64,000 bases of DNA, from NCBI RefSeq assembly GCF_005885635.1, contig NZ_VATY01000002.1, forward strand, positions 186,001 through 250,000, written 5' to 3'. Within the stretch, counting starts at the first letter, position 1. Every line of letters begins with the position of its first letter. This DNA is from Maribacter algarum (ex Zhang et al. 2020) (lineage in GTDB: Bacteria; Bacteroidota; Bacteroidia; Flavobacteriales; Flavobacteriaceae). Under the pieces are notes generated by a model. The model saw nothing but the letters and a program-made list of their open reading frames with translations. It searched no databases and was not told the origin of the DNA. The translations under genes and the position numbers were made by a program. Below are positions 1 to 33,728 of the stretch, one piece after another.

Positions 1-353
1 AGAAACTGAATCAAGACTCAAATCGAAAAATTGATTTAATCCAAAACTATGTGAATGATAATTTTCAAAACCAAATCACATTAAAAGAAATTTCAAATCT
101 CGTTTTAATGAACGAGGAAACGTTTTGTAGGTTTTTCAAACGCACCTTCGGAAAATCTTTTTTTACTTTTCTGAATGAATATAAAATCAAGTTAGCGAGT
201 AAGCAACTTATCGAAACGAACAAGCAAGTTTCTGAAATTGCTTTCTTATGTGGATACGAAAGTCTTCCTTTTTTCTACAGGCAGTTTAAAAAGTTTATGA
301 ATTGCACGCCCCTGGCATATCGAAAGAAATATGTTAGAGCATTTTCTTTTTAA
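1..353 (+). CDS. AraC-family transcriptional regulator, C-terminal part (cut by window start)
   Basis: Only the DNA-binding end of this protein is in the window. The reading frame stays open to base 1, and upstream of the GTG at 51 it encodes residues such as DLIQNYV that belong to the first helix of an AraC HTH domain, so the GTG is not the real start. Two helix-turn-helix units are visible: ITLKEISNLVLMNEETFCRFFK, with the recognition helix around FCRFFKRTFG, and VSEIAFLCGYESLPFFYRQFKKF followed by TPLAYRKKY, the AraC signature. The effector-binding half lies outside. It reads in the same direction as the fucosidase gene 163 bp downstream and could regulate it, but that is inference from position only. 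Confidence 0.9.
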   Translation, partial: KLNQDSNRKIDLIQNYVNDNFQNQITLKEISNLVLMNEETFCRFFKRTFGKSFFTFLNEYKIKLASKQLIETNKQVSEIAFLCGYESLPFFYRQFKKFMNCTPLAYRKKYVRAFSF

Positions 354-516: not shown

Positions 517-2070
517 ATGATTTTTGTTAAAAGAATAATTGTTTTCCTTTTAATAGTCTCTGTATTTTCTTCTTGCGGAGATGAGACCAATAAGAAGATT
601 GCAGAAAACAAAACCAATGATTCTATCCCTGTTTTCGAGGCGAATTGGGAATCCATCCTTAAAAATTACAAAGACCCAGAGTGGTTTAATCAGAAAAAAT
701 TTGGAATTTTTATCCATTGGGGAGTTTATTCTGTACCTGCCCATGGTTCGGAATGGTACCCGAGAAGAATGTATATGGATACCGCAACTTTTAGTGCACA
801 ATTGAAACTACAAAAAGAAGGTCCCAATGAAACTTATTTGTATCACCAAGAAAAGTGGGGTGATCAAAAAGAATTTGGTTATAAAGATTTCATTCCTATG
901 TTCAAGGCCGAGAAGTTCGACCCTGTGGAATGGATTGATCTTTTTAAAAAAGCAGGGGCCAAATACGTTGTACCTGTTGCTGACCATCATGATGGATTTG
1001 CCATGTTCGACTCCAAGACTACCAAATGGAACGCTGTAAATATGGGCCCCAAAAGAGATGTTTTAGGAGAGCTTTTTAAAGAAGGTCGAAAGCAAGGTTT
1101 AATTATGGGAGCTTCATCTCATTATGCCTTTAATTGGTCTTTTTTCAATAAGAAAGATCACTTTGATACAGTTGATCCCGAGTTTTCGGATTTGTATTCC
1201 CCTAAAGGAAAAGATGTTACAGAGCCTGTTTCTGAAGAGTTCAAAAGAATGTGGTGGGATCGCACGACTGACCTAATCGATAACTATAAACCTGAAATTC
1301 TCTGGTTTGATTTTTATTTAGATATACCTGAGTATGAGGAATATCGTCCTAAAATAGCTGCTTACTATTACAATAAAGGTTTAGAGTGGGGCAAGGAAGT
1401 GGTTATCAATGATAAGAATTTGAATCATGAAGCGTTTCCGGAGGGAAGTGTGATTTATGATTTAGAACGAGGAAAACTACCCGGTATTCGAGAGCTTCCT
1501 TGGCAAACGGATACCTCTATTGGAAAGAGATCTTGGGGTTATGTTACGGATGAAGAACCTAAAACGGCCAACGAGTTGGTTGATGATTTAGTGGATATAG
1601 TGTCGAAAAACGGGAATCTTCTATTAAACATAGGGCCCAGGCCTGATGGAACAATTCCCGAAGATCAAAAAGAAACCTTATTGCAAATAGGTAGTTGGTT
1701 AGATATAAACGGAGAAGCTATTTACGATACCAAATACTGGAAAATTTTCGGCGAAGGACCAACGAAGCAAAAAGGAGGGTACATGTCCGAACACGATGTT
1801 CAAGGGTTTTTTACATCAAAAGATATTCGTTTTACACAAAAAGGAGATAAGCTATACGCCACTGTATTAGCTTGGCCTAAAGATGGTAAAGTTGATATAC
1901 AAGCCCTGGGAAGTGCAAGTGAGCATGCAAAAGATATAGAAATTAAAGGTGTTCGACTATTAGGTAGTGATGCCAAAGTGAATTTTGTTCAAAAAGAAAA
2001 GGGATTGTTGATTACAAATATGGGTCCAAAAGTAGGGGACTTTGCCCATGTTCTAGAAATCAGTTTATAA
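517..2070 (+). CDS. GH29 alpha-L-fucosidase, exported lipoprotein
   Basis: Predicted exo-acting alpha-L-fucosidase (some GH29 enzymes also release alpha-L-galactose). The first 20 residues form an SPII signal with lipobox SSC, so Cys20 is the likely lipidation site and the enzyme is membrane-anchored outside the cytoplasm. The catalytic barrel is clear: FGIFIHWGVYS (62-72), the His pair in ADHHDG (155-160), and WFDFY around 263-267, where Asp265 is the expected nucleophile. It is followed by LLLNIGPRPDG, typical of GH29. Length (517 aa) is normal for the family with its C-terminal beta-sandwich. A terminator follows, so it is probably transcribed apart from the operon downstream. It would supply free L-fucose to the FucP and oxidative pathway encoded next to it. 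Confidence 0.95.
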   Translation: MIFVKRIIVFLLIVSVFSSCGDETNKKIAENKTNDSIPVFEANWESILKNYKDPEWFNQKKFGIFIHWGVYSVPAHGSEWYPRRMYMDTATFSAQLKLQKEGPNETYLYHQEKWGDQKEFGYKDFIPMFKAEKFDPVEWIDLFKKAGAKYVVPVADHHDGFAMFDSKTTKWNAVNMGPKRDVLGELFKEGRKQGLIMGASSHYAFNWSFFNKKDHFDTVDPEFSDLYSPKGKDVTEPVSEEFKRMWWDRTTDLIDNYKPEILWFDFYLDIPEYEEYRPKIAAYYYNKGLEWGKEVVINDKNLNHEAFPEGSVIYDLERGKLPGIRELPWQTDTSIGKRSWGYVTDEEPKTANELVDDLVDIVSKNGNLLLNIGPRPDGTIPEDQKETLLQIGSWLDINGEAIYDTKYWKIFGEGPTKQKGGYMSEHDVQGFFTSKDIRFTQKGDKLYATVLAWPKDGKVDIQALGSASEHAKDIEIKGVRLLGSDAKVNFVQKEKGLLITNMGPKVGDFAHVLEISL

Positions 2071-2215: not shown

Positions 2216-3229
2216 GTGAAATATATAGTTTGTGAGAAACCAGGAGAATTCGTTCTTAAAGAAAAAGATTCCCCGAAGCGAAAAGAAGGTGAGGCTTTGT
2301 TAAAAGTTACTAAGGTGGGTATCTGTGGAACAGATTTACATGCCTTTGCTGGCAATCAAGCATTTTTTACCTACCCCAGAATTTTGGGTCATGAATTGGC
2401 TACCCGAATCGAAGCCATAGGTGAAAATAGCAAGGGACTCAAGCCTGGTGATAATGTGGTTGTTATGCCTTATTTAAGTTGTGGTAAATGTGTTGCTTGC
2501 AGAAATAGAAAAACCAATTGTTGTACGAGTTTGCAAGTTTTAGGTATTCACACCGATGGCGGAATGCAAGAATATATCACTGCACCTATCGATATTTTAA
2601 TTCCCTCGAAAAACCTCACCGATAACCAAATGGCACTGGTTGAACCACTTGCCATTGGTGCTCATGCCGTTAGACGCGCTCAACTGAAACCAGAGGAAAC
2701 AGTTGTCGTCATAGGTTGCGGACCGATAGGTTTAGGACTTATGAAATTTGTGCAGATTGCGGGTGCTAAGGTTATCGCCGTTGATATGAATCAACAAAGG
2801 CTTGATTATGCTAAGAAGACAATTGGTGTTGACCATGTGGTTTTGGCTGGCCATAAAGCGATTCAAAATATAAGCGATATAACTGATGGCGACATGGCTG
2901 CTGCTGTGTTTGATGCTACTGGGCATAAGGGAGCTTTGGAATCGGGACCTGATTACATGTCTCACGGAGGCAGATATATTTTAGTTGGGCTGTCAAAAGG
3001 AGAATTGACCTTTAAGCATCCGGCAATACATGCAAAAGAGACCTCTATTTTATGCAGCAGAAATGCCGCACTGGAAGATTTCGAACATGTAATTTCAGTT
3101 TTGGAAAGTGGTATTTTCCCTGTTGAATCTTTTATTACCCATAATGTAGACTATACTGATATGATTGCTAATTTTAATAGCTGGGTGAATCCCGCTACCG
3201 GCGTAATAAAGGCAACAGTGAATTTTTAA
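2216..3229 (+). CDS. Zinc-dependent medium-chain dehydrogenase (sugar/sugar-acid), first gene of the deoxysugar operon
   Basis: NAD(P)-dependent alcohol dehydrogenase of the zinc MDR superfamily. Catalytic zinc ligands are Cys37 in GICGTD and His59/Glu60 in GHE. Structural zinc cysteines sit at 89, 92, 95 and 103 (C-x2-C-x2-C-x7-C). The Rossmann motif GCGPIGLG lies near residues 167-174. The start is GTG at 2216; no better ATG precedes it and the MKYIVCEKPG beginning fits the family. Six bases separate it from the uxaA-like gene. Relatives of this type include L-threonine, sorbitol and galactonate dehydrogenases. Beside UxaA and UxaB homologues it could oxidise C5 of L-galactonate or L-fuconate as E. 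coli LgoD does, or oxidise 2-keto-3-deoxy-L-fuconate. Substrate is inferred, family is certain. Confidence 0.88.
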   Translation: MKYIVCEKPGEFVLKEKDSPKRKEGEALLKVTKVGICGTDLHAFAGNQAFFTYPRILGHELATRIEAIGENSKGLKPGDNVVVMPYLSCGKCVACRNRKTNCCTSLQVLGIHTDGGMQEYITAPIDILIPSKNLTDNQMALVEPLAIGAHAVRRAQLKPEETVVVIGCGPIGLGLMKFVQIAGAKVIAVDMNQQRLDYAKKTIGVDHVVLAGHKAIQNISDITDGDMAAAVFDATGHKGALESGPDYMSHGGRYILVGLSKGELTFKHPAIHAKETSILCSRNAALEDFEHVISVLESGIFPVESFITHNVDYTDMIANFNSWVNPATGVIKATVNF

Positions 3230-3235
3230 TAGACC

Positions 3236-4888
3236 ATGTCCAAACAATTTTTACAAATACATCCGAAAGACAATGTTCTGGCTGCTTTGCGCGATATTGA
3301 TAAAGGAGATGTTGTTGATTTTCAAGGCAATTCTTTTAGTGCTATTGAACGTATTCCAGCAAAGCACAAATTTACTTTTCAAGATTTTTACCAAGGAGAC
3401 GAAATCATTATGTATGGTGTTCTTGTTGGTGAGGCAACGAAGGCTATTGTCAAAGGTGGGCGAATTTCAATGGAAAATTGTGTTCATGCCTCCATGGAAT
3501 ATGGGGTAAGTTCAGAACAATTTATCTGGGAAGCGCCCAATGTAACAAAATGGAAAGATGCTACTTTCAAAGGCTATCACCGAGCTGATGGTAGCGTAGG
3601 TACGGCCAATAATTGGCTCATTATTCCCATGGTTTTTTGTGAAAATCGAAATGTTGAGGTTTTAAAGTCTGCTTTGCAAGAATCATTGGGGTATCATACT
3701 ACAAACGATTTTGTGGTGGACACGGATGCATTGGTAAGTCAGTATAAAAATGGTGCGTCAACGGAAGATTTAATGAATTCTGAAATCATTCGGTCACCAG
3801 AAGAAATTAAGCAAAATAGAACTTTCCCTAATGTAGACGGGATCAAATTTTTGACCCACGATGGTGGCTGTGGCGGTTTTCGGCTTGACTCGGAAACACT
3901 TACAAGCCTATTAGCAGGTTATATAACAAACTCCAATGTAGCGGGAGCGACAATTTTGAGTTTGGGCTGTCAAAATGCCGAGGTGAAAAACTTGCTAGAA
4001 GGCATAAAGAAAAGGGATTCGAATTTCTCCAAGCCCCTATATGTGCTAGAACAACAAAAGAGTAAAAGCGAACGTCACTTCATTGAAGAAGCGGTCAAAA
4101 AGACTTTTTTAGGATTAATTGAGGCCAATAAAGTAGAACGTAAACCAGCTCCATTGTATCACTTGAACCTCGGTCTGGAATGTGGTGGTTCAGATGGTTT
4201 TTCGGGAATATCGGCTAATCCAGCTTTGGGCTATGCTTCTGACTTATTAGTTGCTTTAGGTGCTACAACGGTGTTGTCTGAATTTCCGGAGTTGAACGGG
4301 GTAGAGCAAGAGTTGATAAATAGATGCGAATCCCAAGAGAACAAGAAGAAATTTGCACGTCTGATGGATACCTATGCGGCCAGAGCGATTGCCCTAGGTT
4401 CGGCATTTAAAAACAATCCATCCCCTGGAAATATTAAAGATGGACTTATAACAGACGCAATGAAATCCGCTGGTGCCGCAAAGAAGGGCGGAACCTCTTT
4501 GATAACCGATGTTTTGGATTACACCGAAAAGTGCACCAAAAAAGGACTCAATCTTTTATGCACACCTGGCAATGATGTTGAAAGTACCACAGGACTGGCG
4601 GGCTCCGGTTGTAACATTATCTGCTTTACTACAGGATTAGGGACACCTACCGGAAATCCGGTTGCACCAGTTATCAAAATGTCTAGTAACAATATTCTGA
4701 GCGAAAAGATGAACGACATTATTGATTTCAATACCGGAACCATAATTACTGGTGAAGATACCATTAAGTCCAAAGGGGAGGAGCTTTTGGAGTATATAAT
4801 TAAAGTGGCGAGTGGAGAAGAAATTCCTGCAGCTGTTCGATTGGGCCAAGACGATTTTATTCCTTGGAAACGTGGTATATCCCTTTAA
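3236..4888 (+). CDS. UxaA/GarD-family sugar-acid dehydratase (altronate dehydratase type)
   Basis: Iron-dependent sugar-acid dehydratase of the altronate/galactarate family, removing water from C2-C3 to give a 2-keto-3-deoxy acid. Residues 1 to about 95 form the SAF domain, and the rest is the catalytic GD_AH region, with GYHRADGSVGTANNW near 115-129, a GGCGG stretch near 211 and GLECGGSDGFSG near 315. At 550 aa it is a fused full-length form; Campylobacter splits the same protein into two genes. Cytosolic. In this operon the substrate is probably L-fuconate, or D-altronate/6-deoxy-altronate if the neighbouring UxaB-like enzyme works first. It sits 6 bp after the MDR gene and 9 bp before the UxaB-like gene, so co-transcription is very likely. 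Confidence 0.9.
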   Translation: MSKQFLQIHPKDNVLAALRDIDKGDVVDFQGNSFSAIERIPAKHKFTFQDFYQGDEIIMYGVLVGEATKAIVKGGRISMENCVHASMEYGVSSEQFIWEAPNVTKWKDATFKGYHRADGSVGTANNWLIIPMVFCENRNVEVLKSALQESLGYHTTNDFVVDTDALVSQYKNGASTEDLMNSEIIRSPEEIKQNRTFPNVDGIKFLTHDGGCGGFRLDSETLTSLLAGYITNSNVAGATILSLGCQNAEVKNLLEGIKKRDSNFSKPLYVLEQQKSKSERHFIEEAVKKTFLGLIEANKVERKPAPLYHLNLGLECGGSDGFSGISANPALGYASDLLVALGATTVLSEFPELNGVEQELINRCESQENKKKFARLMDTYAARAIALGSAFKNNPSPGNIKDGLITDAMKSAGAAKKGGTSLITDVLDYTEKCTKKGLNLLCTPGNDVESTTGLAGSGCNIICFTTGLGTPTGNPVAPVIKMSSNNILSEKMNDIIDFNTGTIITGEDTIKSKGEELLEYIIKVASGEEIPAAVRLGQDDFIPWKRGISL

Positions 4889-4897
4889 AAAGAATTT

Positions 4898-6346
4898 ATG
4901 CAAGAACTAAACAGACAAACCACAAGCACTCCTAAAAATTTGCCTTTAAAAGTGATGCAATTTGGTGGAGGTAATTTTCTTCGTGCTTTTGTAGATTGGA
5001 TGGTTCAGGTTCTAAATCAAGAAACAGATTTCAAAGGAGGAGTTGTTGTAATTAAGCCTACTGTACGAGGTGATTACCAAGTTCTAAAATCCCAAGATGG
5101 TTTATTTACAGTGGTTTTAGATGGGATTAGAAACGGTGAATTGGTTGCTGAGAGAACCTTGGTTGATTGTGTTCAAGATGTTATCAACCCCTATTCTGAA
5201 TGGGATACCTATTTGGAACTGGCAAAAAATCCTGAAATCCGATTCATAGTTTCCAATACTACTGAAGCAGGTATCAAATTCGATGTAGCAGATACATTTG
5301 AAGATAATCCTCCGAAAGAATTTCCAGCCAAATTGACCATTTGGCTTTACCACCGTTTTCAGCATTTTGGTAATGATAAGACCAAAGGATGCATCTTATT
5401 GCCTTGTGAGCTTATCGAGGATAATGGCACAACTTTAAAATCCGTTATATTGAAGTATGCTGAGCATTGGAACCTTGAAAGGGACTTCGTGAATTGGATA
5501 TATACTGCAAATCACTTTTGCGATACCTTGGTGGATAGAATCGTTTCAGGCTACCCAAATGACAGAGCTGAAGAGATTCGATCGGAAATGGGTTATGAAG
5601 ATGCTTTGTTGGTGGCTGGTGAATATTATCATAGCTGGGTGATTCGAGGACCTGAGTTGGTGCAGAACGAACTTCCTTTCAAACTTACAGATTTGAATGT
5701 TGAATTTGTTAAGGATTTGGTTTCTTACCGAGAGATGAAAGTCCGTATTTTAAATGGAGCACATACAGCAATGGTTCCTGTTGGTTACCTAGGAGGGCTA
5801 AGACTGGTAAACGAAGTAATGGATGACACTGTAGTTTGTGATTTCGTGGAATCACTGTTGATGAATGAAGTGGCCAAAACATTAGACTTTCCTGATAGGG
5901 TCTTAAACAAGTTCGTCCAAGATGTTCTAGACCGATTTCGCAACCCATTATTGAAGCATCAATTGATTAGCATTTCACTAAATAGCACTTCGAAATTCTT
6001 TGCTCGCTTGCTACCGACTTTAACGGATTATTATGTAACTCAAGGAAGTCTTCCCAAGCGAATCGTATTTGGACTTTCAGCACTAATTTGTTTTTATAAG
6101 GGGGAGTTCGGGGGAAAGAGAATTAATCTAAAAGACGACCCTAAAGTATTAAATTTCTTCGCTTCGAATTGGAAAGAATACGAAAGTAATAAATTGAAAA
6201 TAAATATATTAGTTGGAATTATATTGAGTAATACTTCTATATGGGGAAAAGACTTAACTAGGTTCGAAGGCCTCGTTGAGACGGTCTCTGAAAATATTAT
6301 TTCAATTGAAGATAATGGCGTACTGGCAACCTTAAAAAAATTATAG
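4898..6346 (+). CDS. UxaB-like tagaturonate reductase (mannitol dehydrogenase superfamily)
   Basis: Belongs to the polyol-specific long-chain dehydrogenase group that contains tagaturonate reductase (altronate oxidoreductase, UxaB) and mannitol dehydrogenase. Seen in the sequence: an N-terminal nucleotide-binding start (LKVMQFGGGNFLRAFVDWMV, residues about 18-37) and the family block KVRILNGAHTAMVPVGYLGG (about 281-300) containing the catalytic-site KxxxLNxxH arrangement. Length of 482 aa matches UxaB. In E. coli the enzyme interconverts D-tagaturonate and D-altronate. Here, between an MDR dehydrogenase, a UxaA-type dehydratase and a lactonase, it may reduce a 5-keto sugar acid derived from L-galactonate or L-fuconate. 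It is not part of the textbook fucose pathway, which makes its presence notable. Confidence 0.88.
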   Translation: MQELNRQTTSTPKNLPLKVMQFGGGNFLRAFVDWMVQVLNQETDFKGGVVVIKPTVRGDYQVLKSQDGLFTVVLDGIRNGELVAERTLVDCVQDVINPYSEWDTYLELAKNPEIRFIVSNTTEAGIKFDVADTFEDNPPKEFPAKLTIWLYHRFQHFGNDKTKGCILLPCELIEDNGTTLKSVILKYAEHWNLERDFVNWIYTANHFCDTLVDRIVSGYPNDRAEEIRSEMGYEDALLVAGEYYHSWVIRGPELVQNELPFKLTDLNVEFVKDLVSYREMKVRILNGAHTAMVPVGYLGGLRLVNEVMDDTVVCDFVESLLMNEVAKTLDFPDRVLNKFVQDVLDRFRNPLLKHQLISISLNSTSKFFARLLPTLTDYYVTQGSLPKRIVFGLSALICFYKGEFGGKRINLKDDPKVLNFFASNWKEYESNKLKINILVGIILSNTSIWGKDLTRFEGLVETVSENIISIEDNGVLATLKKL

Positions 6347-6347
6347 G

Positions 6348-7175
6348 ATGACAATTGATTCACACCAACATTTTTGGAAATATGAGCCCATCAAGCACGA
6401 ATGGATTGATGATTCGATGTCTGTAATCAGAAGAGATTTCCTTCCATCTGATTTAATCGAAGTTTACAAGGCAAATGGAATTGATGGTTGTGTGGCGGTG
6501 CAAGCTGATCAAACACTCGTTGAAACAGATTTCCTATTGGATTTAGCAAAAGAAAATGCTTTCATCAAAGGAGTTGTAGGTTGGGCGGATTTAAGGTCCG
6601 AAAATATAGATGCTTTATTAGAAGAGTACCACTCTAATCAAAAATTGAAAGGATGGCGTCATATTGTTCAAGGTGAAGCGGACCATAATTTTTTGTTGCG
6701 CCCAGATTTCTTAAGGGGTATTTCTTATTTGGAGAAATACGATTATGCGTATGATATTTTGATTTTTCCTCATCAATTAGGGGCTACTTTGGAATTTGTA
6801 AAACAGTTTCCACATCAAAAATTTGTAATCGACCATATTGCAAAGCCTTGCATCAAAGACGGATTCTTTGAAGGTTGGGCCGTGTTAATGAAAGAAATTG
6901 CCAAACACGAGAATGTAAGCTGTAAAATTTCCGGGATGATTACTGAAGCCGATTTTGATTCATGGAAGCCAACGGAAATTACACCGTATATGGATTTGGT
7001 TTTGAGTGCTTTCGGTGCTGATAGATTGATGTTTGGCTCCGATTGGCCCGTTTGTTTGGTAGCCGGAAACTATGGCGATGTTAAAGGTTTGGTCACTGAC
7101 TTTATAAGTGGATTGTCGGAAAACGAGCAAAAAGCAATAATGGGAGATAATGCCCTAAAATTTTATAATTTATAG
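6348..7175 (+). CDS. Amidohydrolase-2 family lactonase, probable L-fuconolactonase
   Basis: TIM-barrel amidohydrolase of the family that holds L-fuconolactonase and L-rhamnono-lactonase. Metal-binding HxH is at His6 and His8 (DSHQHFW); DHIAKP (near 163) and FGSDWPVC (near 228) carry the later active-site His and Asp. It would open the L-fucono- or L-galactono-lactone made by the SDR next door to the free acid. The ATG lies one base past the previous stop. The homologous protein in the Campylobacter jejuni fucose locus (Cj0487) does this step. Cytosolic, no signal peptide. Family assignment is firm, substrate is inferred from the operon. Confidence 0.88.
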   Translation: MTIDSHQHFWKYEPIKHEWIDDSMSVIRRDFLPSDLIEVYKANGIDGCVAVQADQTLVETDFLLDLAKENAFIKGVVGWADLRSENIDALLEEYHSNQKLKGWRHIVQGEADHNFLLRPDFLRGISYLEKYDYAYDILIFPHQLGATLEFVKQFPHQKFVIDHIAKPCIKDGFFEGWAVLMKEIAKHENVSCKISGMITEADFDSWKPTEITPYMDLVLSAFGADRLMFGSDWPVCLVAGNYGDVKGLVTDFISGLSENEQKAIMGDNALKFYNL

Positions 7176-7176
7176 G

Positions 7177-7968
7177 ATGGATTTAGGATTAAAAGATAAG
7201 GTCGTCGTTGTAACGGGAGCTGCCGGTGTCAAAGGTAGTATTGGGGAAACCATCGTACAGTCACTTGCGAATGAAGGAGCTATTCCTGTTATTGTTTGTA
7301 GAAATGACCGTGGTTATGGGTATGAAGAAGAACTTCAAAAGCGGGGAATCGATGCTATTTTTGTTAAGACCGATTTGTCTAAGCCAGACGAAATAAAGGC
7401 CGCTGCTGAAAGAATAGGTGAGAAGTATGGAAGAATCGATGCTTTAATCAATAATGTAGGTGTTAATGATGGGGCCGGACTTGATGCTTCCATGAAAGAT
7501 TTTATGTATTCGTTACAACTGAATTTGGTGAGCTTTTTTGCCATGACCAAATATTGTCTTCCTTATATCACAAAAGCTAAAGGTAACATTCTGAATATTG
7601 GTTCAAAAGTTGGACTAACCGGACAAGGAGGAACTTCGGGCTATGCCGCATCGAAGGGAGGAGTTCTTGGTTTGACGCGAGAGTGGGCCGTAGATTTGAT
7701 TAAGGAGGGGATACGTTCAAATGCTATCATCATTGCTGAGAGTTGGACACCATCATACGACACATGGATAAAGTCTATACCCAACGGTGAAGAAAAATTA
7801 AAAGCTATTACCAAAAAAATTCCGTTAGGAAATCGAATGACGACCCCAGAGGAAATAGCCGATGTTTGTCTGTTTACAATTTCTGAAAAATCTTCCCATA
7901 CTACGGGGCAGTTTATTACTGTTGATGGAGGCTATGTTCACTTAGATCGGGCCTTATTGACGGAATAG
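7177..7968 (+). CDS. Short-chain dehydrogenase, probable L-fucose dehydrogenase
   Basis: Classical SDR with an expanded glycine motif TGAAGVKGSIG (13-23), NNVG (92-95), catalytic Ser143, Tyr156 and Lys160 (YAASK), and the usual VDGGY near the C terminus. It would oxidise C1 of L-fucose (and, as known for related enzymes, D-arabinose or L-galactose) to the lactone; the Campylobacter FucX enzyme is the functional analogue. An alternative role is 2-keto-3-deoxy-L-fuconate dehydrogenase, also an SDR. It starts one base after the lactonase stop. After it there is an 89-bp gap before the transporter, with no clear terminator. Confidence 0.87.
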   Translation: MDLGLKDKVVVVTGAAGVKGSIGETIVQSLANEGAIPVIVCRNDRGYGYEEELQKRGIDAIFVKTDLSKPDEIKAAAERIGEKYGRIDALINNVGVNDGAGLDASMKDFMYSLQLNLVSFFAMTKYCLPYITKAKGNILNIGSKVGLTGQGGTSGYAASKGGVLGLTREWAVDLIKEGIRSNAIIIAESWTPSYDTWIKSIPNGEEKLKAITKKIPLGNRMTTPEEIADVCLFTISEKSSHTTGQFITVDGGYVHLDRALLTE

Positions 7969-8057: not shown

Positions 8058-9389
8058 ATGAGCAATTCGACTAAAATACCTGTAGTTCGCAAAGAGTTAC
8101 TCTTTCCATTTATCATTATTACTTCGCTTTTTGCACTTTGGGGAATTGCCAATGATTTGACAAATCCCATGGTGTCTGCGTTCAAGAAAGTAATGCCGGA
8201 ACTCTCTAATGTTCAGGCTTCTTTAGTGCAATTTGCTTTTTATTTCGGCTATTTTTTTATGGCCTTACCAGCGGCCTTGTTTATTCGAAAGTACAGCTAT
8301 AAGTCAGGTATCATTTTAGGATTGATATTATATGCTATTGGGGCATTTTTGTTTTATCCAGCAGCGGCTTACGAAGAATATAACTACTTCTTAATTTCAC
8401 TTTGGGTACTTACTTGTGGTTTAGCGTTTTTGGAGACTACCTCGAACCCCTTAGTATTAGCGCTGGGAGATAAAGAAACTTCTACGAGACGTTTAAATCT
8501 TGCCCAGGCCTTCAACCCAATGGGCTCTTTAACTGGAATGATAATAGCTCAGGTTTTTGTAATTGGGGCATTGCGCTCCGATGATTATACAGCAGATGCT
8601 TATAATGCACTTACTTCTGATGAGCTAGCTGTTATTCGTGAAAATGACCTTGGTATAATCAGTATTCCCTATATAGGATTGGGAATTCTTGTCCTGGTTA
8701 TTATGGCAATTATCATTTTTACGAAAATGCCAAAAACCGCAGCGGAAGATAAAATGTCACTATCCGAGTCGTTTAAAAAGTTATTCGCCAACAATAATTA
8801 CGTTAGGGGAGTAATTGCTCAGGCTTTTTATGTAGGGGCTCAAATCATGTGCTGGACGTATATCTTCCAGTATGTTGATAATATAAATTCATCTTTACCC
8901 GAAGGAGAACAGTTGACGGCAACTTGGTTTAATGTTGCGGCTATGATTGTATTCTTGGCCGGAAGGTGGATTGGTACCATATTAATGCGGAGCATCGACC
9001 CTTCTAAATTGTTAATGTTATTTGGAATTGGAGGAGTGATAATGTCTGCGGGTGCTATTTTACTTCCGGGTATGGTAGGATTGATTTCCTTGGTTGGTAT
9101 TTCTGTATTTATGTCAATCATGTTCCCTACAATCTATGGAATTGCATTAAAGGATATGGGTGATGAAGCTAAAATCGGTTCTGCGGGACTCGTTATGGCT
9201 ATCGTGGGCGGAGCTTTGATGCCCGTATTACAAGGGAGTATTTTAGATTGGGGAGGAAGTGGTTTTGCCGATGTTGAAGTTCTTGGATTTATCCCTGAAG
9301 TGAAATTCTCTTTCATCCTTCCTTTGATTTGTTTAGCCGTGGTAGCTTGGTATGGCTATTCTAGCTACAATAACAATAAAGTTTCATAG
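8058..9389 (+). CDS. fucP: FucP-type L-fucose:H+ symporter (MFS)
   Basis: Major facilitator of the fucose permease family with about 12 hydrophobic segments across 443 aa. Acidic residues aligned with the proton- and sugar-coupling positions of E. coli FucP are visible: Asp33 in IANDLTNP and Glu126 in FLETTSNP. Inner-membrane uptake of L-fucose; E. coli FucP also takes L-galactose and D-arabinose. It is placed directly before the mutarotase gene (no spacer) and after the SDR, so the operon imports and then oxidises the sugar. Confidence 0.9.
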   Translation: MSNSTKIPVVRKELLFPFIIITSLFALWGIANDLTNPMVSAFKKVMPELSNVQASLVQFAFYFGYFFMALPAALFIRKYSYKSGIILGLILYAIGAFLFYPAAAYEEYNYFLISLWVLTCGLAFLETTSNPLVLALGDKETSTRRLNLAQAFNPMGSLTGMIIAQVFVIGALRSDDYTADAYNALTSDELAVIRENDLGIISIPYIGLGILVLVIMAIIIFTKMPKTAAEDKMSLSESFKKLFANNNYVRGVIAQAFYVGAQIMCWTYIFQYVDNINSSLPEGEQLTATWFNVAAMIVFLAGRWIGTILMRSIDPSKLLMLFGIGGVIMSAGAILLPGMVGLISLVGISVFMSIMFPTIYGIALKDMGDEAKIGSAGLVMAIVGGALMPVLQGSILDWGGSGFADVEVLGFIPEVKFSFILPLICLAVVAWYGYSSYNNNKVS

Positions 9390-9740
9390 ATGAGCGACCT
9401 AAGAAGATTTTGTTTTTCCTGTGATTTAAAAGAAGATTCTCAATTAATCAAAGAGTATAAAGAATATCATGCTCAAGGTAATGCCTGGCCAGAAATCACG
9501 AAAAGTATAACCGATGCTGGAATTATTGATCTACAAATATATATTTCAGGCAATCGTATGTTCATGATTATGGATGTTGACCCTAGCTTTGATCCAGTCA
9601 AAAAATCAAAAATGGACGCTGCAAATACCAAGGTTCAAGAATGGGAGGACCTCATGTGGAAATATCAACAAGCCTTACCTTGGGCAAAAGAAGGTGAAAA
9701 ATGGGTCGGGATGGAAAAAATTTTCCAACTCGGATGGTAG
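9390..9740 (+). CDS. L-rhamnose/L-fucose mutarotase family protein (DUF718)
   Basis: Small (116 aa) ferredoxin-like protein of the RhaM family, which interconverts sugar anomers. A Tyr23-x3-His27 pair (YKEYH) corresponds to the active-site Tyr/His of E. coli RhaM. The ALPWAKEGEKWVGMEKIF ending is typical. It abuts the transporter gene: the TAG of fucP is followed directly by this ATG. In oxidative fucose loci this family supplies the anomer used by the dehydrogenase. Its stop codon touches the stop of the opposite-strand sulfatase gene, leaving no room for a dedicated terminator. Confidence 0.88.
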   Translation: MSDLRRFCFSCDLKEDSQLIKEYKEYHAQGNAWPEITKSITDAGIIDLQIYISGNRMFMIMDVDPSFDPVKKSKMDAANTKVQEWEDLMWKYQQALPWAKEGEKWVGMEKIFQLGW

Positions 9741-12530: not shown

Positions 12531-14057
12531 TTAGGTCAATATATCTTTAACTACATGGCCGTGTACATCGGTCAGACGATAACGTCTTCCTTGATGTTTG
12601 AATGTCAAACGTTCATGGTCAATTCCGAATAGGTGCATTAATGTCGCATGAAAGTCATGAACATGAACTGGGTCTTTCACCACATTATAACTGAAATCGT
12701 CGGTTTCGCCGTGAGTGTGTCCTGCTTTTACTCCTGCACCTGCCATCCACATAGTGAAGGCTTTTGGGTGGTGGTCGCGACCATAATTTTCTGGGGTCAA
12801 TTGCCCTTGGGAATACACGGTTCTACCAAATTCTCCACCCCAAACAACTAAAGTATCCTCAAGCATGCCACGTTGTTTTAAATCTTTTATCAAAGCTGCG
12901 TTCGCTTGGTCGGTTCGTAAGCATTGGGACTTAACACCGCCGGGGCAATAGCTATGCTGGTCCCAACCTTGATGATATAACTGAACGAATTTCACGTCCT
13001 TTTCCAAAAGCTTTCGAGCCATCAAACAATTGGCTGCATACGTTCCGGGGTCTCTACTATCTTCGCCATACATATCAAAAATATAATCGGGTTCGTCAGA
13101 CATGTCTGTCACTTCGGGAACTGAGGTCTGCATTCGGAATGCCATTTCATACTGTGCCATTCTCGCTTGAATTTCGGGGTCTCCGTAAGCGTCATGTTGC
13201 ACTTCGTTGAGTTTTCCTAGATAATCCAACATCTGTCTTCTATCGTGTCCATCATAATTTTCAGGATCGCTCAAGTAGAGCACAGGGTCTTTTCCCGAAC
13301 GAAATTGAACCCCCTGGTGTTCAGTAGGTAAAAAACCATTGCCCCATAGTCGGGAATACAAAGGTTGACCACCCATGTTTTTTGTAATCAAAGTAATAAA
13401 GGTGGGCAAGTTCTCGTTGTCTGAACCCAATCCATAGCTTAACCAAGAACCAATAGATGGCCTTCCCGGAAGCTGATTTCCGGTTTGCATAAAAGTAATG
13501 GCAGGGTCATGGTTGATTTGGTCCGTTTGCATCGATTTAATAAAACAGAGCTCATCAACCACCTCCGCGGTGTACGGAAGAAGTTCACTGGCCCAAGTTC
13601 CTGATTCCCCATACTGTTGGAAATCAAAAATGGAAGGTGCCATAGGAAACGTGGTCTGCTCAGCACTCATTGCTGTCAGCCGTTGCCCTTGCCGAACCGA
13701 ATCGGGCAAATCTTGTCCGAACATATTTTTCAACTTCGGTTTATAGTCCCACATTTCTAGTTGTGAAGGTCCACCGCTTTGAAAAAGGTAAACGATACGT
13801 TTGGCTTTTGGTAAATGATGCGGAAGCCCTAAACGGTTCTTGTTATATGATTTCAAGAGAGCCTCAGAACTTGAAGTGTCCAATGCACCATTCTTGACAG
13901 ATGCAAAAGCCTTATCGGTCTTTAGTAAAGAACCTAGAGCAATAGCACCTAAGCCCATAGAGGTCTTTGTTAGGAAGTTACGACGATCCATTTGATGTTC
14001 TACTTCCTGTAGGTCTTTGTTGTTTGACCTTAAAATATCATCGTGATTGTGACACAT
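12531..14057 (-). CDS. DUF1501 protein, Tat-exported (alkaline-phosphatase/sulfatase-fold relative)
   Basis: DUF1501 protein of 508 aa. After a 22-residue leader there is a Tat motif (MDRRNFLTKTSMG) and a hydrophobic segment, so it should be exported folded. Family blocks seen: YLFQSGGPSQLEMWDYKP, VVWGGEFGRT and GRDHHPKAF, the last two being putative metal-site regions of the phosphatase-like fold. DUF1501 proteins are nearly always encoded beside PSCyt1-DUF1549-DUF1553 proteins, as here, and the pair is thought to act together, but no reaction has been proved. The spacing to the upstream cytochrome gene is 23 bp. This pairing is abundant in Planctomycetes and much rarer in Flavobacteria. Confidence 0.9.
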   Translation of the reverse strand: MCHNHDDILRSNNKDLQEVEHQMDRRNFLTKTSMGLGAIALGSLLKTDKAFASVKNGALDTSSSEALLKSYNKNRLGLPHHLPKAKRIVYLFQSGGPSQLEMWDYKPKLKNMFGQDLPDSVRQGQRLTAMSAEQTTFPMAPSIFDFQQYGESGTWASELLPYTAEVVDELCFIKSMQTDQINHDPAITFMQTGNQLPGRPSIGSWLSYGLGSDNENLPTFITLITKNMGGQPLYSRLWGNGFLPTEHQGVQFRSGKDPVLYLSDPENYDGHDRRQMLDYLGKLNEVQHDAYGDPEIQARMAQYEMAFRMQTSVPEVTDMSDEPDYIFDMYGEDSRDPGTYAANCLMARKLLEKDVKFVQLYHQGWDQHSYCPGGVKSQCLRTDQANAALIKDLKQRGMLEDTLVVWGGEFGRTVYSQGQLTPENYGRDHHPKAFTMWMAGAGVKAGHTHGETDDFSYNVVKDPVHVHDFHATLMHLFGIDHERLTFKHQGRRYRLTDVHGHVVKDILT

Positions 14058-14080
14058 ATTAGATGAGTTTAATCAATAAT

Positions 14081-17000
14081 TTATCGCTTTGTAATTGCTG
14101 CATCCGAATTGATAATCGTACTTGCGACAACAGCGTTTGCAGCCACTAAGGCTTCGTCATTATCATTTGAAATACGGAATTCACCAGAGTTTAACCATCC
14201 TTCTGTCTTGGATTTCTTGGATTTGAATTTTTTATATTCTTCTAGTTGCAAATCAGCCAATAGGTTCAATTCTTTATCTTGAATTGTTCTTCCTGTTAAT
14301 TTTTTGAAAGTATCAGCGATGCCAGCTTTTGGGTCGGAATATTGCATCATATTATAGCCTAATACACGCGATGCTTCTACATAGGTCGGATCATTCATCA
14401 AAACCAAAGCTTGTAATGGCGTATTGGTTTCTTGACGTCTAACGGCACAGAAAGATCTTTCAGGAGCATCGAATGTTGCTATGGTTGGGTGCGGTACCGA
14501 ACGTTTCCAAATCGTATACATGCTTTTGCGATATAATTTTTCTCCCTGGTCTTCTTCATAGGCTGCTCCGTTGATTTTCCAGAGTCCAGCGGGCTGATAG
14601 GGTTTTACGCTTTTTCCACCGACCTTTCGATTCAATAAACCGGAAGCCAACAATGCGTTGTTTCGCAACATTTCACCTGTCAATCTACCGGATGGTCCTC
14701 GCGCCAGCAATCGATTTGCTTTGTCCCTAGCCATCAATTCTTCCGTTGGTAAAGAAGATTGCCGGTAGGTTTTGGACATAACCATGAGCTTGTGTAATGC
14801 TTTTACATCCCAACCCGATTCCATAAATTGAATGGCCAGCCAATCCAATAAAGCGGGATGGCTTGGCAATTCCCCTTGGTTTCCGAAATCTTCCACAGTC
14901 CGGACGATTCCCGTTCCGAATAAATTCTTCCAATAGCGGTTTACCGTGACCCGGGCGGTTAGCGGATTTTCCTTACTGGTTACCCATTTGGCCAATCCCA
15001 AGCGATTTTTTTCAAGACTATCAGGAAACGCGAATATTTTATCTGGAGTATTCGGATAAACCTGCTCGCCATATTGGTCGTACAATCCGCGCTCTAAAAC
15101 AAAAGTTTCACGGGGTTTGTCCATCTCCTTCATTATCATAATCTCCTGAACTCTTTCCGCACTATCCGCCTGTATTTGCCGTGCCTTTCTAAGCTCAGTT
15201 AAAGAACTTTTAAAAGATGTGGACCTGTTTGCTAAATAGTAATTCTCTAACTCCTTTTTATCAAGGTCGCTCAATTGATCTTTGTTCTTCGCCACTAATG
15301 ATTGAACTCTTTTCTGGTTTCCTATTTGACCGACTTCTAAAGAGGTCAGTTCTTTGTTGAATACCAATATGTCATCCACTACGGCACCACCAATACCTTT
15401 TCCGCGCCAGCGAGCTCCAATGGCTAATCCAGGTTCGATGGGGTGCTTGTAAATAAAATCCTCGTAGGAATTGAAGATGATGTCCCGATACAGATTATCT
15501 ACTTCGACCTCGGTTTGCAGTTCTTCCCCATCCATGTAAATTTTTAGGCCATCAGCTTTGCTCGAGCCATCATAGGTCATGGTAAGTTGTATCCACTGGT
15601 TTTTTGGAACTTCCTTCGTACTAAGTTCTACAATAGCATTATCAGGCCATACATGTGCCATGATAAGGTCTAATTTATTTTCCTTTAATCCCAAATGATA
15701 TCCTCTATAACTATGTAATCGTGTACCGAAGTTTTTATGGAATATTACGCCATTTTCTAAATCCTCAGGAATTTTAACACGAATTCCAATGCTAAAAGGT
15801 TCATTGCGCCTGAAAACACCAATCGGATTCAAATCCAACCAAGCATCACCATCTAATTCCAATCCCTTTCCGGAATACCCATCAACGATTTTTGCAATTT
15901 GTTTTGGCGCGAATTGCCGGTCCATTTTTCCTTTTTGTGATGGATTCAAGGCGTTGTTGAGGCTTCCATTTTTGAAATCTACTTTGGCTACCAGATTACT
16001 TGGAGTTCCTTTTGGACTTATTTTCTTATATCCTTCAGATGCTATCCAATCCGTACCTTTTACACCTTCAGACTTTGTAACTTGAGCAACAACCTCTTCC
16101 TTTTCATCAATTAGACCGTCGACGTAAGTCATAAATTTTTCCTGTTCATCTGTGGGAAGTTGCATATTAGGAACGGGCATTGACCAGTCCCATGGAATTT
16201 GTCCTGATTCGTTCACATTATTGAAGAAACTATACATTTCATAATAGTTCTTTTGGGAGATTGGATCATACTTATGGTCGTGGCATTTGGCACAGGCCAT
16301 TGTGAGCCCTAAAAAGCCCTCACTCACCACATTTGTGCGATCAGCCACATATTCTGAACGGAATTCTTCATCAACAATACCACCCTCCAAATTTTGTGGG
16401 TGTAAGCGATTAAAGGTGGTTGCCAATAGCTGTTCTTTAGTAGGGTTTTTCATCATATCACCGGCCAACTGCCAACGAATAAATTCGTCATAGGGCATAT
16501 TTTTGTCGAAAGCTTTTATGACCCAGTCGCGATAAGGGGAAACATCGCGGTAACGGTCAACAGTATAACCATGTGTGTCTGCATAGCGTGATAAGTCCAT
16601 CCAATCCAAAGTCATTTGCTCTGCGTAATGAGAGGAAGCTAAAAGTCTATCTACTTGCTTTTCATAGGCATTTGACGAACTATCCTTTGAAAAGGTTTCA
16701 ATTTCATTTAGGGTAGGAGGCAATCCGGTTAGATCAAAAGACAATCTTCGCAACAGGGTTTCTTTGTCCGCGGATTCAGATGGTTGTAAACCTTCTACCT
16801 CCAATTTAGCTAAGACAAAATTATCTATAGTATTGCCCACTTTGTCCGCTAACTCAACTTTGGGAGGTTCTTGTTTTAAGGGAGGAATAAATGCCCAATG
16901 GTCTTTATATTCGGCACCTTCCTCAATCCATCTAACCAACATTGCTTTTTCGTAATCAGTCAAGAAGAGGTGTGTTTCAGGTTCTGGCATCACTAGTTCA

Positions 17001-17323
17001 GGGTCTTCGGAAAGAATACGGTCGACAAGAAGGCTTTTTCCTGCATTTCCGGGAACTATGGCATATTTGCCAGGGGTATTTTCCGATTCTTTGTAGGCCA
17101 AATCCGGAAGATGTAATTGCAAGCCAGCGGATATTTTATTCTTATCAGGTCCGTGACATAAATAGCACTTGTCTGAAAGTATAGGTTTTACATGTTGATT
17201 GAAGTCGATTTGCTCGGGAAGCTTTTCATAGGCCAATTGTACATCTTCGGGCATATCAGGGCCTCCGCATGAAATCAAGGTTATTAAACCGACTATTAAT
17301 ATGTAAACAAAATTTTTAGGCAT
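14081..17323 (-). CDS. PSCyt1-DUF1549-LamG-DUF1553 multidomain lipoprotein (c-type heme)
   Basis: Large 1080-aa exported protein. Lipobox LISC gives lipid-modified Cys19. A planctomycete-type cytochrome domain follows, with heme motif CYLCH (53-57). DUF1549 runs from about 155 to 365 and contains a second CxxCH, CAKCH, near 341-345. A concanavalin/LamG-like insertion with WIQLTMTYDGSS lies at about 505-660, then a short helical stretch, then DUF1553 at about 780-1040 with TARVTVNRYW and AVRRQETNTPLQAL. The LamG insertion suggests carbohydrate contact. The heme motifs imply redox work in the periplasm or at the outer membrane, perhaps oxidising a sugar. Its partner DUF1501 follows directly. 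Function unproven in any organism; the domain reading is firm. Confidence 0.9.
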   Translation of the reverse strand: MPKNFVYILIVGLITLISCGGPDMPEDVQLAYEKLPEQIDFNQHVKPILSDKCYLCHGPDKNKISAGLQLHLPDLAYKESENTPGKYAIVPGNAGKSLLVDRILSEDPELVMPEPETHLFLTDYEKAMLVRWIEEGAEYKDHWAFIPPLKQEPPKVELADKVGNTIDNFVLAKLEVEGLQPSESADKETLLRRLSFDLTGLPPTLNEIETFSKDSSSNAYEKQVDRLLASSHYAEQMTLDWMDLSRYADTHGYTVDRYRDVSPYRDWVIKAFDKNMPYDEFIRWQLAGDMMKNPTKEQLLATTFNRLHPQNLEGGIVDEEFRSEYVADRTNVVSEGFLGLTMACAKCHDHKYDPISQKNYYEMYSFFNNVNESGQIPWDWSMPVPNMQLPTDEQEKFMTYVDGLIDEKEEVVAQVTKSEGVKGTDWIASEGYKKISPKGTPSNLVAKVDFKNGSLNNALNPSQKGKMDRQFAPKQIAKIVDGYSGKGLELDGDAWLDLNPIGVFRRNEPFSIGIRVKIPEDLENGVIFHKNFGTRLHSYRGYHLGLKENKLDLIMAHVWPDNAIVELSTKEVPKNQWIQLTMTYDGSSKADGLKIYMDGEELQTEVEVDNLYRDIIFNSYEDFIYKHPIEPGLAIGARWRGKGIGGAVVDDILVFNKELTSLEVGQIGNQKRVQSLVAKNKDQLSDLDKKELENYYLANRSTSFKSSLTELRKARQIQADSAERVQEIMIMKEMDKPRETFVLERGLYDQYGEQVYPNTPDKIFAFPDSLEKNRLGLAKWVTSKENPLTARVTVNRYWKNLFGTGIVRTVEDFGNQGELPSHPALLDWLAIQFMESGWDVKALHKLMVMSKTYRQSSLPTEELMARDKANRLLARGPSGRLTGEMLRNNALLASGLLNRKVGGKSVKPYQPAGLWKINGAAYEEDQGEKLYRKSMYTIWKRSVPHPTIATFDAPERSFCAVRRQETNTPLQALVLMNDPTYVEASRVLGYNMMQYSDPKAGIADTFKKLTGRTIQDKELNLLADLQLEEYKKFKSKKSKTEGWLNSGEFRISNDNDEALVAANAVVASTIINSDAAITKR

Positions 17324-17339
17324 AAAGAACTTTGAACGT

Positions 17340-18647
17340 TTAAAACTTCCTATACTTTCTTTTCTTCATCTTATTCGCTTCCTTATCACCTATAAATTTT
17401 TCCTTTTCAGGGTTCCAATCCAAAGATCTTCCCAGTTGGTAAGCAATATTGCAAATATTTCCAATGGAAGCTGAGCGGTGTCCAATTTCCACATCGCAAA
17501 TCGGCTGACTTCTATTTTTGATGGCATCAATCCAGTTTTGATAGTGATTCCCACGGGACTCATCAAGTGTGGTATTCGAAGCTTCCAGTTCAGCAGTTAA
17601 AATACTTGCAGGGTTTGTTTCAAGGTATTGACGGCTAACATCTAAGGTGCCTTCGCTTCCAATAAAACGAACACCCCAGCCACGACCAAAATCTTCATGA
17701 ATCATTTCAATTCCGTTTTGGTATACCATTCGCATACCACGAACGGCGTTACGGTCTTTTGGTGGTTCAAAACGAACAGGACCAGACCGGTCCATTCCCA
17801 ATCCCCATTGTGCAATGTCAAACATATGGGCTCCCCAGTCAGTCAAGATGCCACCACCAGTTTCTTTGAACTTCCGCCAATCCGGGAAAAATTCTTCGCT
17901 CGTTGGTGGTGAAAGGCGATAATTGTATGGTAGAAGTGGGGCAGGACCACACCATGCATTCCAGTCCACTTCTTTCGGAACCTCTTCCGAAGGCATATTA
18001 AAAGGAATGGCAGGATCTCCAACATTTACCAATACCTTGGTTACTTCTCCAATATATCCTTTACCTACCAAATCAACTGCTTTCTGGAATTTTTGCCATG
18101 ATCGTTGCATACTGCCCACTTGCAGAACAGCTCCCGTTTTTTTGGTGATATTAACCATGTCTTGCCCTTCTTTGATGGTTAAAGTCATTGGCTTTTCACA
18201 GTAAACATCCTTGCCAGATTCCATAGCTGCAATCGCTTGAATCGCATGCCAATGGTCTGGAGTTGCGACTATCACCGCGTCGATATCGGGCCGAGCTAAA
18301 AGTTCTTTATACTTCCTAGTGGTAAATACACCTTTGTAACCAGTCTTCTTGCGTTTATCAGCATATACTTTTTCGACATGGCTTTTGAACCATTCATTTT
18401 TTGTAGTCCAAACGTCAGATCCAGCTACTATTTGGGCATTTGTGTTTTCGGTAAACGCCCTAGCTAAACCAGCACTTTGCTTCCCCAAACCAATAAACCC
18501 TAGGTTGATTTTATCATTTGGAGCAATAAAACCCCTTCCCAAAACGTGTCTTGGAACTATGGTAATTGCCCCAACTACAAGACTAGCTCTCTTGATGAAT
18601 TTTCGTCTGCTCTCAGATTTGATTTTGCTGTTTTTCAAGGTTTCCAT
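17340..18647 (-). CDS. Tat-exported Gfo/Idh/MocA-family protein
   Basis: Residues 13-30 (ESRRKFIKRASLVVGA) form a Tat signal. The NAD(P)-binding fold begins at INLGFIGLGKQSAG, with the hallmark EKP in DVYCEKPMT and ATPDHWHAIQA just before it. The second domain contains LTDWGAHMFDIAQWGLG, where Asp and His are the usual catalytic dyad. Cytosolic members are sugar dehydrogenases. Exported ones must carry tightly bound nucleotide, and some, such as GH109, are NAD-dependent glycosidases. That makes a redox-neutral glycan-cleaving role plausible here. It appears to head the transcription unit running through the PSCyt1, DUF1501, propeller and sulfatase genes. Confidence 0.88.
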   Translation of the reverse strand: METLKNSKIKSESRRKFIKRASLVVGAITIVPRHVLGRGFIAPNDKINLGFIGLGKQSAGLARAFTENTNAQIVAGSDVWTTKNEWFKSHVEKVYADKRKKTGYKGVFTTRKYKELLARPDIDAVIVATPDHWHAIQAIAAMESGKDVYCEKPMTLTIKEGQDMVNITKKTGAVLQVGSMQRSWQKFQKAVDLVGKGYIGEVTKVLVNVGDPAIPFNMPSEEVPKEVDWNAWCGPAPLLPYNYRLSPPTSEEFFPDWRKFKETGGGILTDWGAHMFDIAQWGLGMDRSGPVRFEPPKDRNAVRGMRMVYQNGIEMIHEDFGRGWGVRFIGSEGTLDVSRQYLETNPASILTAELEASNTTLDESRGNHYQNWIDAIKNRSQPICDVEIGHRSASIGNICNIAYQLGRSLDWNPEKEKFIGDKEANKMKKRKYRKF

Positions 18648-18669
18648 TGTGAATATAAATTTACCTTAC

Positions 18670-18701
18670 TAAAGGTACGATTTTAGGGAGGCAGTATCAA
18701 T
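18670..18701 (-). promoter_or_regulatory. Candidate Bacteroidota promoter for the Gfo/PSCyt1/DUF1501 unit
   Basis: On the - strand, ATTG (18701-18698) and TACCTTTA (18677-18670) are separated by 20 bases, close to the TTTG-N17-23-TAnnTTTG consensus (3/4 and 7/8 matches). The -7 box lies 22 bp from the ATG at 18647. It suggests a separate promoter for this subset of the - strand block. Confidence 0.4.
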
Positions 18702-18801
18702 AGTAATTACTGGACAAGATATAGACATTTACTGTATTGAATTTATACGGATGTCTTATTATGAGGTACAAATGATTAAATGAAAATATTAGTTCGAAGT
18801 G

Positions 18802-20316: not shown

Positions 20317-20319
20317 ATG

Positions 20320-22140: not shown

Positions 22141-22149
22141 TACCGAAGT

Positions 22150-26418: not shown

Positions 26419-26501
26419 TCGTATTTTCTCTAAGGTATTTAAATATACCAAATTAAAATTATCGTTGTTACTATGTAAATATTCAATTACCCTTCAAAAA
26501 A

Positions 26502-29330: not shown

Positions 29331-29586
29331 AAGATATGGAACAGGTTTTGGTTATTACTTTAATAAACTTAGTTGAAAGTATGGTTGTTTATGAATGTAA
29401 ATGGTTTTGAAAGCAGAACAAATGGTTATGACCCCAGTATTGTGTGAACTTTTAAGTAATTTATAAGCTTAGGTCTTGAAGAAACGAAATTTCACAAAAG
29501 CCGTATTTACTAAATGATTTTTTCTTTTTAACTTACAAACAACTTCATAATCAGATTAATAACCGATACGATATAAATACGCTACG
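29331..29586. promoter_or_regulatory. Divergent control region with three in-phase ATGGTT direct repeats
   Basis: This 256-bp gap separates the GH2/HTCS block (- strand) from the Gfo/sulfatase/FGE/galK operon (+ strand) and must hold both promoters. Three ATGGTT copies (AACCAT on the - strand) start at 29381, 29401 and 29422, spaced 20 and 21 bp, about two helical turns. AraC-type domains bind direct half-sites at that spacing, so these are candidate HTCS sites. I could not place convincing -33/-7 boxes. Confidence 0.4.
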
Positions 29587-30924: not shown

Positions 30925-30942
30925 TTTTCAAAACCAGATTAT

Positions 30943-32520: not shown

Positions 32521-32554
32521 ATTAGCCGCTTCCAAAATCTCAATTAAACTTTAA

Positions 32555-33709: not shown

Positions 33710-33728
33710 TCCCATATAATTAATACGA

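Follow-up and report, generated by a model that had tools for sequence, protein, structure and literature searches.

L-galactose, a rare mirror-image sugar, is a constituent of porphyran and related galactans of red algae, and enzymes that free it are known. Escherichia coli degrades L-galactonate with LgoD, UxaB, UxaA, KdgK and KdgA, and in E. coli K-12 the lgoD, uxaB and uxaA genes lie in separate regions. In Luteolibacter sp. LG18, the lguABCDEF genes for L-glucose and L-galactose bring together L-galactose dehydrogenase, altronate dehydratase, tagaturonate reductase, L-galactonate dehydrogenase and 2-keto-3-deoxy-6-phosphogluconate (KDPG) aldolase, and enzyme and mutant work supports the same steps; according to that paper's discussion, a complete set of this kind apparently occurs in only some Luteolibacter species (PMC12632266). 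L-galactose and L-galactonate dehydrogenases are also described in a member of the Bacteroidota, Bacteroides vulgatus (BVU_0219 and BVU_0222, as related in the consulted part of PMC12632266), and in Halomonas lgoD, uxaA and uxaB (or uxaF) are co-located with L-fucose and L-fuconate genes (consulted part of PMC5507952). Here we analyse a 64,000 nt stretch of the Maribacter algarum genome (NZ_VATY01000002.1, assembly GCF_005885635.1, positions 186,001-250,000, forward strand), hereafter the window, its genome being G000 in our numbering. The window holds an operon with genes for a medium-chain dehydrogenase/reductase (MDR), a UxaA-type dehydratase and UxaB, which, judging from sequence comparison, is probably an L-galactose operon working by an epimerising route to pyruvate and glyceraldehyde 3-phosphate; the substrates, reactions and polymer given below are predictions. 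The pathway itself is already known from E. coli, B. vulgatus and Luteolibacter, and what is new is the mix of enzymes, some of which usually bear L-fucose labels, and the setting.

The operon has the three central families of the E. coli L-galactonate pathway, in the same inferred order of action, and adds uptake, a mutarotase, a 1-dehydrogenase and a lactonase. We propose that a glycoside hydrolase of family 29 (GH29) would cut alpha-L-galactose off a (red-algal) galactan or a glycan like it, that the FucP-type symporter would import it, and that the RhaM-family mutarotase would supply the right anomer. A short-chain dehydrogenase (SDR) would then oxidise L-galactose at C1, and the amidohydrolase would open the resulting lactone to L-galactonate. 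Oxidation at C5 by the MDR would give D-tagaturonate, which UxaB would reduce to D-altronate, for a net inversion of C5; the UxaA-type enzyme would act as D-altronate dehydratase, and KdgK and KdgA, encoded elsewhere in G000, would finish the route to pyruvate and glyceraldehyde 3-phosphate. The likeness to the Luteolibacter and B. vulgatus systems is one of described enzyme functions; in the sections consulted, no SDR, FucP, RhaM or lactonase is named for the LG18 cluster (PMC12632266). The Halomonas loci belong to another phylum, have TRAP or ABC transport and are a genomic prediction (PMC5507952, in part).

The initial annotation of the sequence had noted that the MDR, UxaA and UxaB families adjoin, and they do so as head-to-tail open reading frames with Pfam domains of the families it named (Table 1). 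The gaps from MDR through UxaA, UxaB and lactonase to SDR are 6, 9, 1 and 1 bp; 89 bp separate SDR from FucP, and the first base of the mutarotase gene directly follows the last base of fucP. Families were assigned with Pfam and NCBIfam models and their cut-offs, and nearest structures by sequence matches to the PDB, in bits. The MDR is 38% identical to E. coli LgoD (263 bits) and 34% to RspB (172 bits), and among conserved columns it shares 46 with LgoD only and 23 with RspB only. It passes no NCBIfam model shown, NF007489 giving the best score (218.4 against a cut-off of 376), and its PDB matches put RspB (173 bits) ahead of 1e3j (135 bits). C37, H59, E60, C89, C92, C95 and C103, which we take to be zinc ligands, are all present. 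The UxaB-like protein, 44% identical to E. coli UxaB, scores 655.7 bits against the tagaturonate reductase model NF002969 (cut-off 359) and has K-x4-N-x2-H at residue 281, presumably the motif of its family. For the UxaA-type protein the assignment is at family level: its GD_AH Pfam domains are over cut-off, its identity to E. coli UxaA is 31%, and its single NCBIfam match, galactarate dehydratase TIGR03248, lies below the cut-off (267.6 against 730.85).

Two samples describe how the gene set is distributed. A UxaA protein search of 196 genomes of the order, that of the window counted in, found homologues in 34 genomes at 38 places, and we examined the flanks of 19 of the 37 places other than the window's. 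The window-type set recurs in three other genomes (loci L033, L034 and L035), with UxaA 64-77% identical; L035 is without the mutarotase and has GH29 inside the operon. Ten places are hexuronate loci with UxaB, UxaC, KduI and KduD (KdgK and KdgA were recognised in nine), four (L036, L038, L040 and L042) are of a kind that we label fucose-type, and two (L050 and L051) match no type. The fucose-type loci hold a second SDR, an FAH-family protein (below the NCBIfam cut-off, 365 against 500), a FucDH-type SDR and RhaM, with no UxaB, MDR or KdgK. The second sample came from a scan of genome contigs with an MDR alignment, which gave 267 relatives; the best 80, all Bacteroidota by title, are the 80 loci referred to throughout, their gene content scored by tblastn within the available flanks. 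MDR, UxaA and UxaB occur together in 47 of them, UxaA in 56, UxaB in 51, the lactonase in 68, the SDR in 56, FucP in 55 and RhaM in 42; the samples overlap, in that the UxaA of L122 and L180 is identical with that of L033 and L034. Because the three-gene arrangement recurs in three other genomes and in 47 of the 80 loci, we do not regard it as a product of chance. In a 92-row UxaA tree, built by a quick method and with long branches, a branch with SH-aLRT 99 splits off the 60 rows from MDR loci, the window's among them, from the four fucose-type rows and 27 rows labelled pectin-type, for not all of which the neighbourhood was examined; the pectin-type L019 and L022 branch next to the MDR-locus rows. 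In the UxaB tree, the UxaB of MDR loci is not resolved as a single clade (support 63).

UxaA, UxaB or both were not found in 33 of the 80 loci. We searched 21 genomes with such incomplete loci, and all 21 have UxaA (by family search) and all 21 a UxaB of at least 41% identity, although in one Maribacter genome the sole close UxaB (from L158:11027) contains an interrupting stop in the frame that was read. The contrast with UxaA in 34 of 196 order genomes is descriptive only, since a Fisher test ignores kinship and sampling. That the missing enzymes are encoded elsewhere is consistent with production by the MDR of D-tagaturonate, at which the galacturonate pathway joins. Three Arenibacter genomes carry the cassette in two loci each (L123/L134, L148/L156 and L128/L159), every locus with its own MDR copy: MDR-SDR-FucP-RhaM stands by GH29, and MDR-UxaA-lactonase, with UxaB between the latter two in L134, stands elsewhere.

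The comparison also speaks to the end of the route, which the initial annotation had left open, and answers it as 2-keto-3-deoxygluconate (KDG) and then KDPG. In 13 of the 80 loci a KdgK gene starts less than 200 bp after the MDR, and KdgA follows downstream in 12 of these; another gene stands between them in L165, the contig ends inside KdgK in L118, and L154, with its KdgK/KdgA pair upstream of the MDR, was left out of the count. In L168, KdgA scores 375.7 bits with the KHG/KDPG aldolase model, above the cut-off of 275. With these loci, an MDR nearer to LgoD than to RspB and a UxaB far above its cut-off, the epimerising LgoD-UxaB-UxaA reading first suggested from the sequence holds up. It was also correct that KDG kinase, KDPG aldolase and FAH are not seen beside the window operon, as far as the part of the window's proteins that was scanned goes; all three occur elsewhere in the genome. 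The genome search for kdgK and kdgA that had been proposed as a check found homologues in G000, and in all four operon genomes searched. One G000 pair lies on the same contig (C12:165107-166865), 21 kb before the MDR and with SusC/SusD-like genes, in what we take as an alginate locus, with further homologues elsewhere; given this separate setting, we rejected it as part of the operon.

On chemical grounds, a KDPG-type ending requires the C6 hydroxyl (O6), which L-fucose lacks, and the KdgK/KdgA ending in relatives therefore favours L-galactose over L-fucose as the sugar. The hydrolase points the same way, since the window GH29 is nearest to the porphyran exo-alpha-L-galactosidase of Bacteroides plebeius, BpGH29, its best structural relative (7ljj/7lk7, 435 bits; best GH29 outside that enzyme 4ni3, 290 bits); the same activity is predicted for the window enzyme. 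It matches 7snk at 442 bits, which is the same B. plebeius enzyme, and BpGH29 takes part in porphyran breakdown (PMC12316285, in part). The GH29 inside the operon of another genome, G109, gives 343 bits to the exo-alpha-L-galactosidase and 269 to the best other GH29, and 29 of the 80 loci have a GH29 at least 60% identical to the window's or that of G109. We also count in favour of L-galactose that an aldo-keto reductase (AKR) replaces the SDR in six of the 80 loci (never both; Pfam-checked in two of the six), the one searched, that of L168, being narrowly nearest to L-galactose dehydrogenase (7lh6, 83 bits; IolS 79). In LG18 the first enzyme, LguA, is NADP-dependent and groups with plant L-galactose dehydrogenase (PMC12632266, in part), whereas the window has an SDR. 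A further point is that neither FAH nor a 2-keto-3-deoxy-L-fuconate (KDF)-type SDR, scored at 45% identity or more, was found in any of the 80 loci within their available flanks; L033-L035 have neither. Of the two inputs first offered, L-galactose is the one supported, by the O6-requiring end and the nearest GH29; L-fucose lost ground to the fucose-type loci, which have FAH and a second SDR and no MDR or UxaB.

Table 1. Operon genes and the GH29 and regulator genes before them, numbered from the first letter of the window
Feature	Position	Strand	Domains, models and remarks
AraC-family regulator, C-terminal part	51..353	+	HTH_18; starts upstream of window
GH29, predicted exo-alpha-L-galactosidase (Pfam Alpha_L_fucos, alpha-L-fucosidase)	517..2070	+	PDB matches
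MDR, predicted L-galactonate 5-dehydrogenase (LgoD-type)	2216..3229	+	ADH_N + ADH_zinc_N
UxaA-type dehydratase, predicted D-altronate dehydratase	3236..4888	+	SAF + GD_AH_second + GD_AH_C
UxaB, predicted D-tagaturonate reductase	4898..6346	+	Mannitol_dh + Mannitol_dh_C; NF002969
Amidohydrolase, predicted L-galactonolactonase, fuconolactonase-like	6348..7175	+	Amidohydro_2; NF052480 below cut-off
SDR, predicted L-galactose 1-dehydrogenase, L-fucose dehydrogenase type	7177..7968	+	NF052481
FucP-type sugar:H+ symporter	8058..9389	+	TIGR00885
RhaM-family mutarotase	9390..9740	+	PF05336

The full AraC-family protein has 287 aa (L032:15490-16353) with Cupin_2 and HTH_18 domains and is, from its position, likely the regulator of the locus.

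The surroundings of related operons add a link to porphyran. A cytochrome P450 homologue adjoins the whole operon in L119-L122, all four from Zobellia. In L123, L128, L149 and L156, from Arenibacter, one adjoins the MDR-SDR-FucP-RhaM part, with UxaA, UxaB and lactonase missing; a P450 also lies near the MDR in L191. Ferredoxin, reductase, alcohol dehydrogenase and esterase-family genes stand beside the P450 in seven of the eight Zobellia and Arenibacter loci, the P450 of L123 being at the edge. Such a P450 set demethylates the 6-O-methyl-D-galactose of porphyran (PMC10033563, in part), and we take its position beside the Zobellia and Arenibacter loci as a reason to favour L-galactose. Close P450 homologues (67-100%) occur in four of the 196 order genomes (G133, G119, G087 and G072), of which G133 and G119 carry the operon, with the P450 of G119 on another contig. 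In L126, L130, L152 and L158, the alcohol dehydrogenase and esterase of the demethylation cluster stand with a PhyH-family dioxygenase and no P450 hit; the window operon, too, has a PhyH gene upstream (L032:14456-15340). The dioxygenase may stand in place of the P450, but in L119-L121 both are present side by side. Downstream in the window, positions 17340-34853 hold sulfatases, a sulfatase-modifying-factor-type gene, a GH2, a hybrid two-component regulator and a galactokinase-like gene, possibly a sulfated-galactan locus.

Several observations weigh against L-galactose as the substrate or against the porphyran setting. The SDR passes the L-fucose dehydrogenase model NF052481 (360.3 bits, cut-off 300) and FucP the L-fucose model TIGR00885 (507.8 bits, cut-off 280.4), and the names attached to the loci include fucoidan degraders, e.g. 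Tamlana fucoidanivorans. G000 has an adjacent FAH and SDR pair that could serve L-fucose. The window's own operon holds neither KdgK nor KdgA, and the kinase that was scanned resembles KDG/KDGal kinases below the curated cut-offs. By its bit scores the AKR match is modest, with IolS nearly level. Neither the window's genome nor G109 has a match to the porphyran P450, and G087 and G072, which have a close one, gave no UxaA match in the protein search. The one window sulfatase compared with the PDB, at 18802-20316, is closer to N-acetylglucosamine-6-sulfatase (152 bits) than to L-galactose-6-sulfatase (7lha, 98 bits), and the scanned proteins of the window and upstream included no recognisable porphyranase or agarase. 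Given the absent P450 and this sulfatase, we do not claim porphyran as a proven substrate of the organism. For the dehydrogenase, the nearest structures are 4gkb/4gvx (254 bits), 4GVX being the L-fucose dehydrogenase of B. multivorans, and the lactonase scores 276.8 bits against NF052480, below its cut-off of 400. The L-fucose dehydrogenase family to which the SDR belongs may oxidise L-galactose too.

The operon may have a side use for L-fucose, and the form of this that survives best, though we think it unlikely, is a dual one: L-galactose would follow the epimerising route, and L-fuconate would be dehydrated directly by UxaA and passed by the unlinked SDR and FAH to pyruvate and L-lactate, on the premise that C2-C4 of L-fuconate have the configuration found in D-altronate. 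The SDR score over the L-fucose dehydrogenase cut-off and the presence of FucP agree with this, as does the adjacency of FAH (62-64%) and the KDF-type SDR (60-65%) in G109, G133 and G000, in the last on another contig than the operon; co-location of L-fuconate and L-galactonate genes has also been proposed in Halomonas (PMC5507952, in part). Against it, another genome with the operon, G119, offers no FAH match better than 33%, FAH and the KDF-type SDR are absent from the available flanks of all 80 loci, and in the tree the window UxaA is separated from that of the fucose-type loci. Moreover, G133 has a separate FucD-like-SDR-FAH-SDR-FucP locus of its own, the FucD-like protein being, by sequence, only a member of the MR_MLE family. 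We found no close FucD-type dehydratase in G000, where the best match to the G133 protein is partial (34%), and no fucose isomerase FucI (PF02952) of the phosphorylative L-fucose pathway in any of six genomes, with a positive E. coli control. DUF1501 and PSD1/PSCyt genes adjoin both the window operon (12531-17323) and the SDR-FAH pair of G000 (L102:3899-9138; L104), and genes of similar size stand before the pair in G109.

A different order of steps for L-galactose, with UxaA acting first to give 2-keto-3-deoxy-L-galactonate and the MDR and UxaB then inverting C5, is improbable. Its precedent is the work of a dehydrogenase pair in the 3,6-anhydro-L-galactose pathway, where C5 inversion comes after dehydration (PMC5943477, in part) and a dehydrogenase is listed against PDB 1E3J (PMC10163077, in part), an entry among the matches of the window MDR, behind RspB. 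However, the second MDRs found by KduD-like genes (L140, L176, L185 and L194), which we assign to the anhydrogalactose type, share only 28-31% identity with the window MDR, against 38% for LgoD, and the reductase clears the tagaturonate reductase cut-off by far. Use of the operon as a galacturonate operon was rejected, as the cassette is without the UxaC, KduI and KduD found in 10 of the 19 UxaA loci compared. Galacturonate may nevertheless be a secondary substrate, because G000 has a single UxaA and a single close UxaB, both those of the window, and two UxaC (C14:69817-71208 and C1:708846-710228). L-fucose as the sole input was rejected on the KDPG end, the lack of FAH in the 80 loci and the type of GH29. 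We also consider it very improbable that L-fucose enters the operon to have C5 inverted by the MDR and UxaB, with 6-deoxy-KDG split to pyruvate and D-lactaldehyde, which would be a third way of L-fucose breakdown with enzymes common to L-galactose; as an account of the operon such an epimerising L-fucose route is scarcely credible, since it draws on the family names of the SDR, lactonase and FucP, the in-operon KdgK and KDPG aldolase of relatives need O6, and G119, in which one DapA-family gene and no close FAH were found, has no obvious DapA-family aldolase for it (other aldolase families were not searched).

We found no description of this operon in marine flavobacteria in the open literature searched, subscription papers being mostly outside that coverage, and no account of the fate of L-galactose in these bacteria in the consulted parts of PMC12316285, PMC10033563, PMC8360166 and PMC5613140. 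If the L-galactose operon proposed here is correct, it would provide a concrete and testable answer to that question and would account for the "fucose"-labelled genes and GH29 found near porphyran-type genes. In Flavobacteriaceae, genes labelled FucDH, FucP or GH29 may then signify L-galactose rather than L-fucose.

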